In this document: positions 42,417 through 50,315 of the stretch, piece after piece
Numbering within the stretch: the stretch's first letter is position 1
Layout of the letters: each line of letters starts with the position of its first letter
Assembly: GCF_900113715.1 (NCBI RefSeq)
Contig: NZ_FOQK01000007.1
Span: forward strand, 1-64,000
DNA: 64,000 nt
From: Pseudoselenomonas ruminantium
Lineage (GTDB): Bacteria > Bacillota > Negativicutes > Selenomonadales > Selenomonadaceae
Direction of reading: 5' to 3'
Made by a program: the position numbers and the translations under genes
Notes under the pieces: generated by a model
The model's database searches: none
Told to the model about the DNA's origin: nothing
What the model saw: the letters and a program-made list of their open reading frames with translations, nothing else

Positions 42417-42662
42417 ATGGACAAGCAGGGAAATGATGGACAGAAACATGAGGGGCTGCGCCAGGCAGTCAAGGCTTTTTCGGTGCTGGGCGGCATTGGC
42501 ATATATCTGGTGGTCTTTGTCGGTATTTGTGTATTCTTGGGCAATCTGGCCGATGAGAATCTCGGGCTTGGCTATGCCGGAAAATTGGTCGGGATCCTCG
42601 TAGGTTTCCCTGGCGCTATCTATACGTTATACCGTCAGCTCAAGCAGGGAAATGTGCTTTGA
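42417..42662 (+). CDS. atpZ: AtpZ/AtpI-family small membrane protein
   Basis: This 81-residue protein has two membrane helices (about 22-44 and 54-72), the second with GKLVGILVGFPGAIYTLYRQ, as in AtpZ proteins that accompany Firmicute ATP synthase operons. In such operons AtpZ and AtpI have been linked to magnesium handling or c-ring assembly. It sits 324 bases upstream of atpI, after the wecB terminator, so it may be expressed apart from the main operon. ATG 42417 lies 6 bases after CAGGGAG. Confidence 0.8.
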   Translation: MDKQGNDGQKHEGLRQAVKAFSVLGGIGIYLVVFVGICVFLGNLADENLGLGYAGKLVGILVGFPGAIYTLYRQLKQGNVL

Positions 42663-42985: not shown

Positions 42986-43360
42986 ATGAAAGAAGTTTTA
43001 TCGGTATTCATAAGGCGCCTGGCGGGTGGCTTGGCGGCAGCCTCATTGATGGTCGGCAGTCTCTTGCTTGCAAGAGGCGAGGCGGATCTCATCGGTGCAC
43101 TGCTGCTGGGGTATCTGGCGGCGCTGGTGTTTGTCTGGAATATGGCCTGGCGATTGTGGAAAATCGCTGCGGTTCCTACTGGCGGCGCAAAGAAGCAGAT
43201 GCTTTGGGGGCTGGTTTTGCGGATGATGGTTCTACTGTTGATCCTGCTGACAGCCGTGAATATTTCTGCGCAAGTGTTCGGAGTGACCGTGCTGGGTTTT
43301 CTCATCTGTTATGGGCTGTCAATATTCTTGCTGATCCACATGAATCACGGTAAAGAATAA
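42986..43360 (+). CDS. atpI: ATP synthase protein I family
   Basis: The 124-residue protein has four hydrophobic helices (about 12-32, 35-58, 75-95, 98-118) and is the first gene before atpB, the normal place of atpI. AtpI proteins assist c-ring assembly or stability. Sequence conservation in the family is low, so the call rests on size, topology and position. The ATG follows GGAGGAGG. Confidence 0.82.
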   Translation: MKEVLSVFIRRLAGGLAAASLMVGSLLLARGEADLIGALLLGYLAALVFVWNMAWRLWKIAAVPTGGAKKQMLWGLVLRMMVLLLILLTAVNISAQVFGVTVLGFLICYGLSIFLLIHMNHGKE

Positions 43361-43391: not shown

Positions 43392-44072
43392 ATGGGCGAA
43401 GAGGTCGTTCATCGCGGAACAGAGCAGATAATGGGCTTCTCCTTTAACATGGAGACGCTGTATATGACCTGGCTCGCGATGGCAATTGTCCTGTTGATCG
43501 CATTCCTGGCTACCCGCAATCTGAAGATCATTCCGAGCGGCTGGCAGAATGTCGTGGAAATCATTGTCTTGTGGCTCCACGAGCAGCTGGATGCGATGAT
43601 GGGGCAGAGAGGCCGGTTCCTGGCGCCATTCATCGTGTCACTGTTCATGTTCCTGCTGGTTTCCAACTGGCTGGGACTGGTGCCGAAGATGGCATCACCG
43701 ACCAATGATCTGAACACTACACTGGCATTAGCACTCCTGGTCATTGTCATGGTACATGTACTGGGGCTTTTCATGAAGGGGGGCCACTATGTGGCGCATT
43801 TCTTCAAGCCGACGCCGGTATTTGTGATCATCAATGCGATCGAGGAAATTGCCAAGCCGATCACGCTGGCATTTCGTCTATTTGGTAACATCCTGGCAGG
43901 CGAGATCCTTATTGTCGTCCTGCTGAAACTCATGCCAATCTGGATGCCGATCCCGGCCGTTGCCTGGCTGGCGTTCAGTATCTTCATCGGCGGAGTTCAG
44001 GCCGTCATCTTCACGATGCTTTCAATGGCATATCTTGCCAATGCAGTCAAGCATGAAGAAGAGGAATCATAA
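43392..44072 (+). CDS. atpB: ATP synthase subunit a
   Basis: Subunit a holds the half-channels for ions at the c-ring. The 226-residue protein shows the essential Arg, R162, in ITLAFRLFGNILAGE. Other family regions are SNWLGLVPKMASPTNDLNTTLALAL and the C-terminal GGVQAVIFTMLSMAYL. ATG 43392 follows AAGGAGG by 8 bases. Confidence 0.95.
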   Translation: MGEEVVHRGTEQIMGFSFNMETLYMTWLAMAIVLLIAFLATRNLKIIPSGWQNVVEIIVLWLHEQLDAMMGQRGRFLAPFIVSLFMFLLVSNWLGLVPKMASPTNDLNTTLALALLVIVMVHVLGLFMKGGHYVAHFFKPTPVFVIINAIEEIAKPITLAFRLFGNILAGEILIVVLLKLMPIWMPIPAVAWLAFSIFIGGVQAVIFTMLSMAYLANAVKHEEEES

Positions 44073-44117: not shown

Positions 44118-44369
44118 ATGGAAAATGCAATTATGGTAGCAGCAGCTTTAATCGGTGCAGGTCTCTGCATGGGTCTTGCCGCAGTCGGCGCAGGTCTTGG
44201 TGATGGTATGGTAACGAGCCGTTTCATCGAGGGTATCACGCGTCAGCCGGAAGCTAAGAACACGCTGTTCACCAATACGCTGATTTCCGTCGGTCTGATC
44301 GAGGCAATGGCAATCATCGCAACGGTTGTTGCCCTGATCATGCTCTATGCTAACCCGCTCATCAAATAA
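44118..44369 (+). CDS. atpE: ATP synthase subunit c (two-carboxylate type)
   Basis: Subunit c forms the rotor ring. The 83-residue helical hairpin has the loop RQPEAK and the ion-binding Glu E62 in the second helix (GLIEAMAI). In the first helix, position 29 is Asp (GLGDG), where the Na+ enzyme of Ilyobacter has Gln32 in the same alignment. There are therefore two carboxylates in the binding site. The other Na+ ligands of Ilyobacter (Ser66, Tyr70) are Ala and Ile here, so ion choice is unclear. ATG 44118 lies 7 bases after AAGGAGGA; a longer frame from 44091 is rejected. Confidence 0.95.
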   Translation: MENAIMVAAALIGAGLCMGLAAVGAGLGDGMVTSRFIEGITRQPEAKNTLFTNTLISVGLIEAMAIIATVVALIMLYANPLIK

Positions 44370-44411: not shown

Positions 44412-44915
44412 TTGATCGAGTTAAATATGACATTTTTCGCGCAGATCCTCAACTTCGTAATCCTGGTCGTATTGCTGCGCGCTGTGGCTTATAAGCCGGT
44501 CGTCAACATGCTCAAAGCCCGCGAGGATAAGATAAAGGAAAGCCTCGATAAAGCAGACGCTGATGCAGCAGAAGCTGATCAGCTGCTGGCTGACTACAAA
44601 AAGAAGCTGGCTGCTGCCAATATCAAGGCTGAGGAGATTATCCGCAACGCGGAAAAACGTGCCAGCGAAGATCGCGAGGCCGCACGTGCTGAGACGAAAC
44701 GCGAAATCGAGCAGATGAAGAAAGCCGCTGCAGCGGAGATCCAGCGTGACCGCGAGCGGGCTGTTGCCCAGCTCCGCGCTGAGGTCGTGGCTCTGTCCAT
44801 GGCTGCTGCCGGCAAGATCATCTCGAAAAATATCGATAAAGCTGAGAATGAACAGCTTATCACGGAATTCGTCGATAAGCTCGACAAAGATAAGATTGGT
44901 GATCTGCCATGCTAA
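44412..44915 (+). CDS. atpF: ATP synthase subunit b
   Basis: Subunit b is the peripheral stalk. The 167-residue protein has one N-terminal membrane helix (about 5-25: FFAQILNFVILVVLLRAVAYKPV) and a long charged coiled coil (Ala/Glu/Lys/Arg-rich, 35-155). TTG 44412 lies 8 bases after a G-rich ribosome binding site. It overlaps atpH by 7 bases. Confidence 0.94.
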   Translation: MIELNMTFFAQILNFVILVVLLRAVAYKPVVNMLKAREDKIKESLDKADADAAEADQLLADYKKKLAAANIKAEEIIRNAEKRASEDREAARAETKREIEQMKKAAAAEIQRDRERAVAQLRAEVVALSMAAAGKIISKNIDKAENEQLITEFVDKLDKDKIGDLPC

Positions 44916-45451
44916 ACTTACAGCTTGCACGTAAATATTCCCGGGCCATCTTCGAGATTGCCCAGGAGGAAGATAAGCTTGTGGAGTATGGCAAGGAACT
45001 CGCGGATGTACGTGCCGGGCTGGACTCGGTTCCCGAGGCTGCCGCATTCCTTTCCAATCCGCAGGTCGAGACGAAGGCGAAGAAAGAGCTCCTGGCGAAG
45101 ATGTTTGCCGGCGAGCTTTCGGCAAACGTGTCCAATTTCTTGATGCTGCTGGTCGACAAGCGCCGCATTGCGCTCCTGGCTGCCATCGAGGATGAGTACC
45201 GTGGGCTTTCCAATGAGGCCAGAGGCATCCTTATTGCGGATGTGACGACGGCAGAGCCGGCAGGTGAGGCGCAGCAGCAGGCCATACGGGCCAAGATTGC
45301 GCAGGTCACGGGCAAGAAAGTGGAGCTTCGTCTCCATGAAGACAAAGACATCATCGGTGGTGTGGTCGTCAAGATCGGTGACCGCCGCATCGATGGCAGT
45401 GTTGCCGGCCGCCTCGAAACGCTGAAAAAAGAATTACTGGCGAACAAGTGA
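44909..45451 (+). CDS. atpH: ATP synthase subunit delta
   Basis: Delta joins F1 to the peripheral stalk. The 180-residue protein has the N-terminal helical domain (ARKYSRAIFEIAQEED) and the C-terminal conserved end DKDIIGGVVVKIGDRRIDGSV. It starts 7 bases within the end of atpF, implying coupled translation. Confidence 0.94.
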   Translation: MLNLQLARKYSRAIFEIAQEEDKLVEYGKELADVRAGLDSVPEAAAFLSNPQVETKAKKELLAKMFAGELSANVSNFLMLLVDKRRIALLAAIEDEYRGLSNEARGILIADVTTAEPAGEAQQQAIRAKIAQVTGKKVELRLHEDKDIIGGVVVKIGDRRIDGSVAGRLETLKKELLANK

Positions 45452-45475: not shown

Positions 45476-46993
45476 ATGAAAATGAATCCGGAAGAAATAA
45501 CAGCCATCATCAAAAACCAGATCAAGAACTATAACGTTGATCTCAATGTGGATGATGTTGGCACGGTTATCGAAATCGGTGACGGCATCGCGCATATCCA
45601 TGGTCTTGAGAAGGCTATGGCTGGCGAGCTGCTCGATTTCGGCAATGATGTATATGGTCTGGTCCTGAACCTTGAGCAGGACAATGTCGGTGCCGTTATC
45701 TTAGGCGGTGAGACGAAGGTCAAAGAAGGCTCGCAGGTCAAGCGCACGGGCAAGATTATGCAGGTGCCGGCTGGCGAAGCTATGATTGGCCGCGTTGTCG
45801 ATGCTATCGGCCGTCCAATTGATGGCAAGGGTGAGATCAAAGCAGAGACGATGCGTCCGGTCGAGTATCATGCACCGGGCATCGCTGACCGTAAATCGGT
45901 CCATGAGCCGCTGCAGACTGGTCTGAAGGCAATCGATGCGCTCGTACCGATCGGCCGCGGCCAGCGCGAGCTCATCATCGGTGACCGTGGTATCGGTAAG
46001 ACGGCTATCGCCGTTGACACGATCCTCAACCAGCATGACCAGGATTGTATCTGCGTCTATGTGGCTATCGGCCAGAAGGCATCGACGGTTGCCCGTGTCG
46101 TCAAGACCCTCGAAGAGGCTGGCGCTATGAAGTATACGATCGTCGTCGCAGCTACGGCTGCTGACAGCGCTCCGCTGCAGTATCTGGCTCCGTATGCCGG
46201 TGTTGCTATGGCTGAGCACTTCATGTATCAGGGCAAGGCCTGCCTCTGCGTATACGATGACCTTACGAAGCACGCAGCTGCTTATCGTGCTATGTCCCTG
46301 CTGCTCAGAAGACCGCCGGGGCGCGAGGCTTATCCGGGCGATGTATTCTACTTGCATTCCCGCCTTTTGGAGCGTGCGGCAAAACTCAGCGACGAGCTCG
46401 GCGGCGGTTCCATCACGGCTCTGCCGATCATCGAGACGCAGGCCGGCGACGTATCTGCCTACATCCCGACGAACGTCATCTCCATTACCGATGGCCAGAT
46501 TATGCTCGAGACGAACTCGTTCTATTCCGGTATCCGTCCGGCTATCAGCGTCGGTCTGTCCGTATCCCGTGTCGGTGGTTCGGCGCAGATCAAGGCGATG
46601 AAGCAGGTCGCTGGTACGATGCGCCTTGACCTTGCCCAGTATCGTGAGCTGGCTGCCTTCTCGCAGTTCGCTTCCGACCTCGACAAGGCTACGAAGGCTC
46701 AGCTCGACCGCGGTGCCCGCATGGTAGAGACGCTGAAGCAGGCGCAGTACAGCCCGCTCTTGGTACAGGATCAGGTCATGGTCATCTACACGGCTGTCAA
46801 GGGTTTCCTCGTCGACATCCCGGTAGAGAAGGTCGTAGAGTTCCATGCAGATTTCCTGAAGTTCATGCATGCACAGCATCCGGAGATCGGCCGCAAGATT
46901 GCCGAGCAGAAGAAGCTGGATGATGCAATCGAGGCAGAGCTCAAGCAGGCAATTGAGGAGTTCAAGGAAACCATCACATACAAAATGGCATAA
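45476..46993 (+). CDS. atpA: ATP synthase subunit alpha
   Basis: This is the non-catalytic nucleotide-binding F1 subunit. The 505-residue protein has Walker [10 protein letters not shown] (about residues 170-178), the arginine-finger segment in [15 protein letters not shown], and the full length of the family. The N-terminal helix ([16 protein letters not shown]) is the contact site for delta. Confidence 0.97.
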
Positions 46994-47012: not shown

Positions 47013-49306
<2,294 letters not shown>

Positions 49307-49309
49307 TCT

Positions 49310-49744
49310 ATGGCGACTATCAAGCTAGAGATTGTCTCTCCGGATAAAGTTGTTTACTCCGCAGACATCAGCATGCTCATCGTCCGTTCCACGGGCGGCG
49401 AGCTCGGCATCCTGCCGAAACATGCCCCGCTGGTCACGGGCCTCGTGCCGCACGCTATGCGCGTGCGCTTAGGCTCCGACCGTGATGAGCAGCTCATCGC
49501 GGTGGCTGGTGGGTTCATGGAGGTCACGCCGGATAAGATCACGGTGCTGGCGACTGCTGCTGAGCAGCCGATCGACATCGACATCAACCGCGCGAAGGAT
49601 GCTATGGCCCGTGCGAAAGCACGTCTGAATGAGTTCCATCAGGGAACCGCTGAGGCGAAGAACATCGACGTCGAACGCGCCCAGCTTGCCATGCAGCGTG
49701 CTATGGCCCGCCTGCGTGCGACGAAGACGGAATTCCAGGAATAA
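49310..49744 (+). CDS. atpC: ATP synthase subunit epsilon
   Basis: Epsilon couples rotor to F1 and can inhibit ATP hydrolysis. The 144-residue protein has the N-terminal beta-sandwich (LEIVSPDKVVYSADISMLIV, GELGILPKHAPLVTGL) and the C-terminal helical hairpin (about 90-140). It is the last gene of the operon, three bases after atpD, and a strong terminator follows. Confidence 0.95.
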   Translation: MATIKLEIVSPDKVVYSADISMLIVRSTGGELGILPKHAPLVTGLVPHAMRVRLGSDRDEQLIAVAGGFMEVTPDKITVLATAAEQPIDIDINRAKDAMARAKARLNEFHQGTAEAKNIDVERAQLAMQRAMARLRATKTEFQE

Positions 49745-49797: not shown

Positions 49798-50130
49798 TCA
49801 GTTGGCGTACTTATTATAAAGCTCGAGCAGGAACATGGCGATGGCAAGGCCCATCGAAGCAAGGCTCGCGCGGTTCACGTAGATCTTGGCGTTCTCGGAG
49901 ATCTTGGCATGACGGAAGACATAGGTCATGGACAGCGAGAAGGTCAGCAGCACGTACATCCAGCGGTTGAGGCTGGTGAGGTATTCCCAGCCGGCAAGGG
50001 TGATGACGATCATGAAGGCGATGATGCCCAGCAGCAGATAGTCCTTGCCGATTTTTTCCTGCGGCTTGCTGTCGTCAGCTTTTTTCTTGGGATAGACTTT
50101 GTTTTGCAGTTTCTTGTATTGTTTGGCCAT
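49798..50130 (-). CDS. Small membrane protein, unknown
   Basis: I do not recognise this 110-residue protein. A basic N-terminal stretch (about 1-28: Lys-rich, KKLQNKVYPKKK) is followed by three hydrophobic segments (about 30-48, 56-74, 84-106). The start ATG at 50130 has AAAGGAG a normal distance upstream; the frame extends further but without a signal. A strong promoter lies upstream, divergent from the GGDEF/EAL gene. The name and role are unknown. Size and topology recall small respiratory or holin-like proteins, but there is no motif to support either. Confidence 0.7.
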   Translation of the reverse strand: MAKQYKKLQNKVYPKKKADDSKPQEKIGKDYLLLGIIAFMIVITLAGWEYLTSLNRWMYVLLTFSLSMTYVFRHAKISENAKIYVNRASLASMGLAIAMFLLELYNKYAN

Positions 50131-50167
50131 AAGCGAAAACTCCTTTGCGATGAAATCAAACATATCC

Positions 50168-50197
50168 ATTATACCATGAGATGATTGGACGAGACAA
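50168..50197 (-). promoter_or_regulatory. Promoter of the small membrane protein gene
   Basis: On the minus strand TTGTCT (50192-50197) and TATAAT (50168-50173) are separated by 18 bases, with TGG before the -10 (extended -10). Confidence 0.75.
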
Positions 50198-50315
50198 ATC
50201 ATGGTTTACAGGGTTACGGCTATTTTGGCGGCGGGGCAGGAAATAACGCGTTCGAGGCGAATGATATAGGTAATGATGTGAACGAATGTGCCGGAAAGAG
50301 TTAGAGGGTAGCTAT

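Follow-up and report, generated by a model that had tools for sequence, protein, structure and literature searches.

Which ion turns a rotor ring whose subunits each carry two carboxylates, and what would the second carboxylate do there? The question is raised by atpE in the window, a 64,000-nucleotide stretch of Pseudoselenomonas ruminantium DNA (contig NZ_FOQK01000007.1, positions 1 to 64,000), and it matters because the coupling ion decides how an anaerobe ties its Na+ pumps to ATP. The gene is preceded immediately 5' of its ATG by AAGGAGG, and its translation (44118-44369, plus strand) is MENAIMVAAALIGAGLCMGLAAVGAGLGDGMVTSRFIEGITRQPEAKNTLFTNTLISVGLIEAMAIIATVVALIMLYANPLIK. It stands in a run of genes that point in one direction, in the order AtpZ-like, small membrane protein, atpB, E, F, H, A, G, D, C:

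42417..42662, plus strand: AtpZ-like protein, first of the atp genes (Pfam match, PF09527 ATPase_gene1)
42986..43360, plus strand: AtpI-like small hydrophobic membrane protein of 124 aa, named by position only (no Pfam or NCBIfam match)
43392..44072, plus strand: atpB, subunit a (sequence and family match), with an RLFGN motif that we take to be the stator arginine motif
44118..44369, plus strand: atpE, F1Fo ATP synthase subunit c, 83 aa and then a stop; a two-helix rotor hairpin
44202..44204, plus strand: codon of Asp29, the second carboxylate, in helix 1; aligned to Q32, E32 and D32 of Ilyobacter, F. nucleatum and M. phlei
44301..44303, plus strand: codon of Glu62, the conserved ion-binding carboxylate of helix 2 (E in 91/91 class sequences)
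44304..44318, plus strand: codons 63-67, Ala-Met-Ala-Ile-Ile, replacing the Na+ partners Ser66, Thr67 and Tyr70 by alignment
44412..44915, plus strand: atpF, subunit b (sequence and family match)
44909..45451, plus strand: atpH, subunit delta (sequence and family match)
45476..46993, plus strand: atpA, subunit alpha (position and sequence only)
47013..47867, plus strand: atpG, subunit gamma (sequence and family match)
47891..49306, plus strand: atpD, subunit beta (sequence and family match)
49310..49744, plus strand: atpC, subunit epsilon (sequence and family match)

Convergent with atpC, at 49798-50202 on the minus strand, lies a 134-aa ORF with hydrophobic stretches and no Pfam match.

AtpE is an ordinary F-type rotor subunit c with a mycobacterial-like two-carboxylate site. 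It matches Pfam ATP-synt_C at E=1.5e-18 and exceeds the cut-offs of two NCBIfam F0F1 subunit C models; profile scores above the curated cut-off, together with the atp gene run, place it with the F-type subunits c (PF00137, TIGR01260), and it has the two helices, the RQP loop and the helix 2 carboxylate of an F-type hairpin. A profile search of its own genome returned atpE as the only PF00137 match. This single match and the F-type gene order speak against a paralogous or N-type c gene. Two S. ruminantium loci (L097 and L101), among the best 80 of 148 Selenomonadaceae loci, encode the identical protein.

The original prediction had placed Asp29 at Gln32 and Glu62 at Glu65 of Ilyobacter, with Ser66 and Tyr70 replaced by Ala63 and Ile67. 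The two acids are real and the residues are as named: in an alignment anchored on RQPEA, D29 falls on Ilyobacter Q32 and F. nucleatum E32, E62 on E65, and A63, M64 and I67 on S66, T67 and Y70 of Ilyobacter, so that AtpE has one acid in helix 1 and one in helix 2. With the Ilyobacter tartaricus c11 Na+ ring (1yce) it shares the hairpin fold, the RQPEAK loop and the essential Glu, but has Asp, Ala, Met and Ile where that ring has Gln32, Ser66, Thr67 and Tyr70. The Fusobacterium nucleatum c11 Na+ ring (3zk1) likewise carries a carboxylate per helix, in the two alignment columns where AtpE has them, but has Glu32, Ser66, Thr67 and Tyr70. A second carboxylate in helix 1 is also found in the Burkholderia N-type ATPase c-ring, where a passage of PMC5376962 describes it as always protonated; that ring, unlike AtpE, combines Glu30 with Thr62, Met63 and Tyr66 and belongs to another operon type.

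The closest known rings are mycobacterial. A PDB sequence search with AtpE gave 55 distinct sequences with E up to 0.1, headed by the c-rings 7jg5 (M. smegmatis) and 4v1f (M. phlei). Both contain GAGIGDG and GLVEA, of which AtpE shares GAGxGDG and GLxEA. Like AtpE, these rings have GDG in helix 1 and a site made of Asp32, Glu65, Ala66 and Ile70; AtpE is identical to M. phlei at positions 29, 62, 63 and 67, and at 49% of residues over the M. phlei stretch. It differs after the Glu-Ala pair, where Met64-Ala65-Ile66 stand in place of Ala-Tyr-Phe. Met64 (44307-44309) occupies the position of M. phlei Ala67, a listed diarylquinoline contact, so that contact surface is not fully conserved in AtpE. 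In the M. phlei ring, a figure legend puts Asp32, Glu65 and Ile70 at one site (PMC5874750). A water-mediated bonding network of Asp32 is described in part of PMC8873251. A passage of PMC6541270 reports clinical variants of M. tuberculosis in which the corresponding Asp is replaced, by the amide among others, showing that the acid can be lost at this position there.

AtpE is therefore a further case of an already known two-carboxylate rotor type, and the claim that it would be a new variant with a coupling ion beyond guessing fails, since the same Asp, Glu, Ala and Ile make up the site in the mycobacterial rings. A passage of Schulz et al. (2013; PMC3692424), the Fusobacterium study to which the original prediction alludes, names the double-carboxylate motif as common to M. 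tuberculosis and S. pneumoniae and treats these rotors as H+-driven. Similarly, a passage of PMC2914638 recognizes a 'mix' class of proton-coupled rotors in which polar or charged side chains persist at the positions used by Na+. Together with the mycobacterial-type site, this makes the coupling ion of AtpE predictable. Schulz et al. expect that the extra acid is constitutively protonated and, as far as selectivity goes, no different from Gln or Asn; in the passages concerned, simulation, crystals and transport assays support this for one Na+ enzyme, and for the H+ enzymes it is an expectation. In the literature searched, theirs was the only paper found on constitutively protonated c-rings of ATP synthase.

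The predicted fold adds little to the choice of relative. The AlphaFold2 model of AtpE (mean pLDDT 80.4, pTM 0.45) has helices at 2-42 and 44-78. M. smegmatis chains fill the first seven ranks in Foldseek, a method that uses both sequence and structure. By VIA-align the top Z was 7.2, for a Pseudomonas ring, and mycobacterial rings were not separated from other c-rings, implying that the relative is chosen by sequence, not by fold alone. By homology, Asp29 is predicted to point toward the ion site.

How constant is this site among relatives? The class search gave a c-subunit match in 148 of 150 Negativicutes genomes. The 91 loci compared are made up of 30 returned loci, the own-genome locus (the own gene being included twice) and 60 regions that add genera; a few genera with unlisted matches, and other matches, were left out. 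Position 29 is Asp in 72 and Asn in 19 of these subunits and no other residue in any, position 62 is Glu in all 91, position 63 is Ser in 53 and Ala in 38, and position 67 is Ile in 82, Leu in eight and Met in one. Among the best 80 of 148 loci from named Selenomonadaceae, Asp29 and Glu62 were present in 80 of 80. With Glu62 invariant and position 29 confined to Asp or Asn in both sets, the Asp29/Glu62 pattern is not due to chance. The conservation of D29 on which the original prediction hung thus stands for Asp or Asn at the position; it does not stand for the acid itself, which the 19 Asn rows show not to be required.

On a quick tree of AtpB, AtpF and AtpH (90 loci, AtpE excluded), position 29 changed between Asp and Asn eight times, counted without direction, and six of these changes are forced by well-supported branches. 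In one clade of eight rows (L046, L053, L058, L064, L068, L071, L077, L081), Asn29 occurs together with Ser63 and Leu67, a combination absent from the other class rows. The Asn29 rows outside it have Ala63 in 11 of 11 cases; in independent pairs, about two speak for an association of Asn29 with Ala63 and none against, with four showing no difference. In some Negativicutes genomes there are at least two F-type c genes at different sites, and every one of the loci concerned (L055/L056, L084/L085, L087/L088, L089/L090) has a subunit a ORF. One hit (L092) is on a viral contig. The interchange of Asp and Asn may be read as mutagenesis done by nature, and its pattern offers an evolutionary test of the predicted constitutive protonation of second carboxylates. 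We did not find this interchange described in the literature searched, whose coverage leaves most subscription journals outside.

We consider it probable that the AtpE ring is H+-coupled and of the same Asp/Asn plus Ile type as the mycobacterial rings, with Glu62 as the proton carrier, Asp29 as a permanently protonated hydrogen-bond donor whose proton is not transported, and no Na+ shell. To judge by its invariance and by what other c-rings do, Glu62 would bind and release the transported proton. Asp29, in helix 1 of the same hairpin, would stay protonated throughout, and its hydrogen bond would keep Glu62 closed while the site faces lipid. A role as a neutral donor may be the reason why Asp and Asn replace each other in evolution. 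With Ala, Met and Ile replacing Ser66, Thr67 and Tyr70, Na+ would find no shell of polar side chains.

The main competitor is a rotor of the F. nucleatum kind, with two carboxylates and Na+ as the coupling ion but with Asp in place of Glu32. In its favor, the genome encodes candidate Na+ pumps: one match to an OAD_beta decarboxylase subunit, with a short gamma-like ORF in front, and two Rnf-Nqr matches in a run resembling rnfD, G, E, A (the rnfD, rnfG and gamma names being readings of the sequence only). These families presumably make Na+ gradients, and a Na+ gradient is then likely in this cell. The ring itself tells against Na+. We scored a Na+ signature of four side chains (Gln/Glu at 29, Ser/Thr at 63, Thr at 64 and Tyr at 67), which gave 4 for F. 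nucleatum and Ilyobacter, 2 for Spirulina, and 0 for both M. phlei and AtpE. Scores were 0 or 1 in 90 of 90 class rows and in 80 of 80 named Selenomonadaceae (best 80 of 148), and no Tyr occupied the Tyr70 position in the 91 class rows or these 80; a score of 4 was found in 19 of 91 other Bacillota rows, two of them tandem half hairpins with Gln replacing Glu. Because none of the four positions is filled in AtpE, its coupling ion is predicted to be H+. The gradients could also be connected by another route, as one of three PF03553 Na+/H+ antiporter matches in the genome lies on the same contig (C9:64000-64884), beginning at the window's last base, 64000; a profile search of the genome gave no match to PF00999. 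A Na+ rotor thus seems improbable to us, with due regard to three points. Ser63, at the Ilyobacter Ser66 position, occurs in 53 of the 91 class rows, so that part of a Na+ shell is common nearby. Motif-based calls can err, as with C. aceticum, where the Na+ motif was first said to be missing and Na+ dependence was then demonstrated, according to part of PMC7911925. And the literature searched on Negativicutes, Selenomonas and Sporomusa yielded no measured ion specificity for any Negativicutes enzyme, and no paper on the ATP synthase c subunit of Negativicutes. If the rotor is H+-driven, Selenomonas would have to route the energy of decarboxylase-made Na+ through an exchanger, for which the PF03553 antiporter is a candidate; the Na+ gradient that other parts of the cell probably make would then drive the ATP synthase by way of Na+/H+ exchange alone. 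In Fusobacterium, a passage of PMC3692424 states, decarboxylase Na+ feeds the ATP synthase directly, a point against the H+ reading.

Two other readings give Asp29 a different task. It might be a second working carboxylate, co-transporting a proton or sensing pH and braking the rotor when the pH is high, an idea once based on double-carboxylate mutants of E. coli (as cited by a passage of PMC3692424). The presence of two acids in the site, and of Asp in all 80 named Selenomonadaceae rows, would fit. A titratable group needed at position 29 would not, however, allow the eight Asp/Asn interchanges seen in the class while Glu62 stays constant, and the passages of PMC3692424 on F. nucleatum report no H+ co-transport, so we hold this to be very unlikely. 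The alternative that Asp29 has no ion-site role and serves packing or assembly in a GxGxG helix contact draws on its location within the glycine-rich strip. Other small residues could pack there, yet all 91 class rows have Asp or Asn, and the equivalents Q32, E32 and E30 are ion-site residues in other rings; we give this reading equally little credence. The swapping of Asp and Asn in relatives suggests instead that Asp29 is a hydrogen-bonding prop rather than a second ion carrier.

A further indication of a permanently protonated donor comes from which exchanges position 29 makes. On a tree of c subunits only (185 rows, with columns 29, 63, 64 and 67 masked; weakly resolved, with 23 of 178 inner branches well supported), position 29 underwent ten D/N and five E/Q changes, one D/E, one D/Q, and four in which Gln alternates with Ile, Met or Val. 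At position 38, an acidic site close to the loop, there were six D/E, one E/Q, one E/N and four other changes. Acid/amide against D/E exchanges thus number 15 to 1 at position 29 and 1 to 6 at position 38 (Fisher p=0.0005, or p=0.0013 with E/N counted too), a contrast that is indicative only, as position 38 is a control picked post hoc and was left unmasked in the tree. It is not repeatable on the AtpB, AtpF and AtpH tree, where position 38 changed only twice (one D/E, one A/E). General exchange rates would not favor D/N, as BLOSUM62 gives D/E 2 and D/N 1. There is thus an indication that position 29 mostly keeps its size and not its charge, as would be the case for a donor that never loses its proton; our reading is that the position calls for a side chain of set length that can form hydrogen bonds, with ionization dispensable.

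Finally, the comparison was widened to the phylum. A Bacillota search matched 130 of 149 genomes, and 80 listed places, mostly one per family, supplied 84 hairpins. A PF00137 search of the 19 genomes without a match and seven weak ones matched 24 of these 26; from its 30 loci, 22 V-type double hairpins were dropped and eight single hairpins added, including the V-type half hairpin L272, and two single-hairpin places without a locus were left out. Among the resulting 182 Bacillota rows, 105 pair Asp or Asn at position 29 with Ile, Leu or Met at 67, and 69 pair Gln or Glu with Tyr or Phe; the remainder are seven with other residues and Tyr or Phe, and L272, with Gln and Leu. This split holds for these 182 rows, among which the streptococci, two-carboxylate according to a passage of Schulz et al. 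(2013), were not recognized. Ala25 is present in 105 of 105 Asp/Asn rows and Gly59-Leu60 in 104 of 105, giving them the appearance of one old lineage. On the c tree, Asp/Asn against the rest requires two changes, whether M. phlei is included or not; the second is owed to a lone Glu row on a very long branch (L244) inside the Asp/Asn group. This amounts to about one old event, and repeated co-evolution of positions 29 and 67 is rejected; their coupling looks like a design difference between two lineages. On balance we favor the broader view that Bacillota F-type rotors follow mainly two designs, one combining Gln/Glu and Tyr/Phe, the other Asp/Asn and Ile/Leu, acid and amide being interchangeable within each. 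The second design would be H+-only, and the acid of its Asp/Asn plus Ile rotors would never deprotonate during the cycle and would be selected as an amide.
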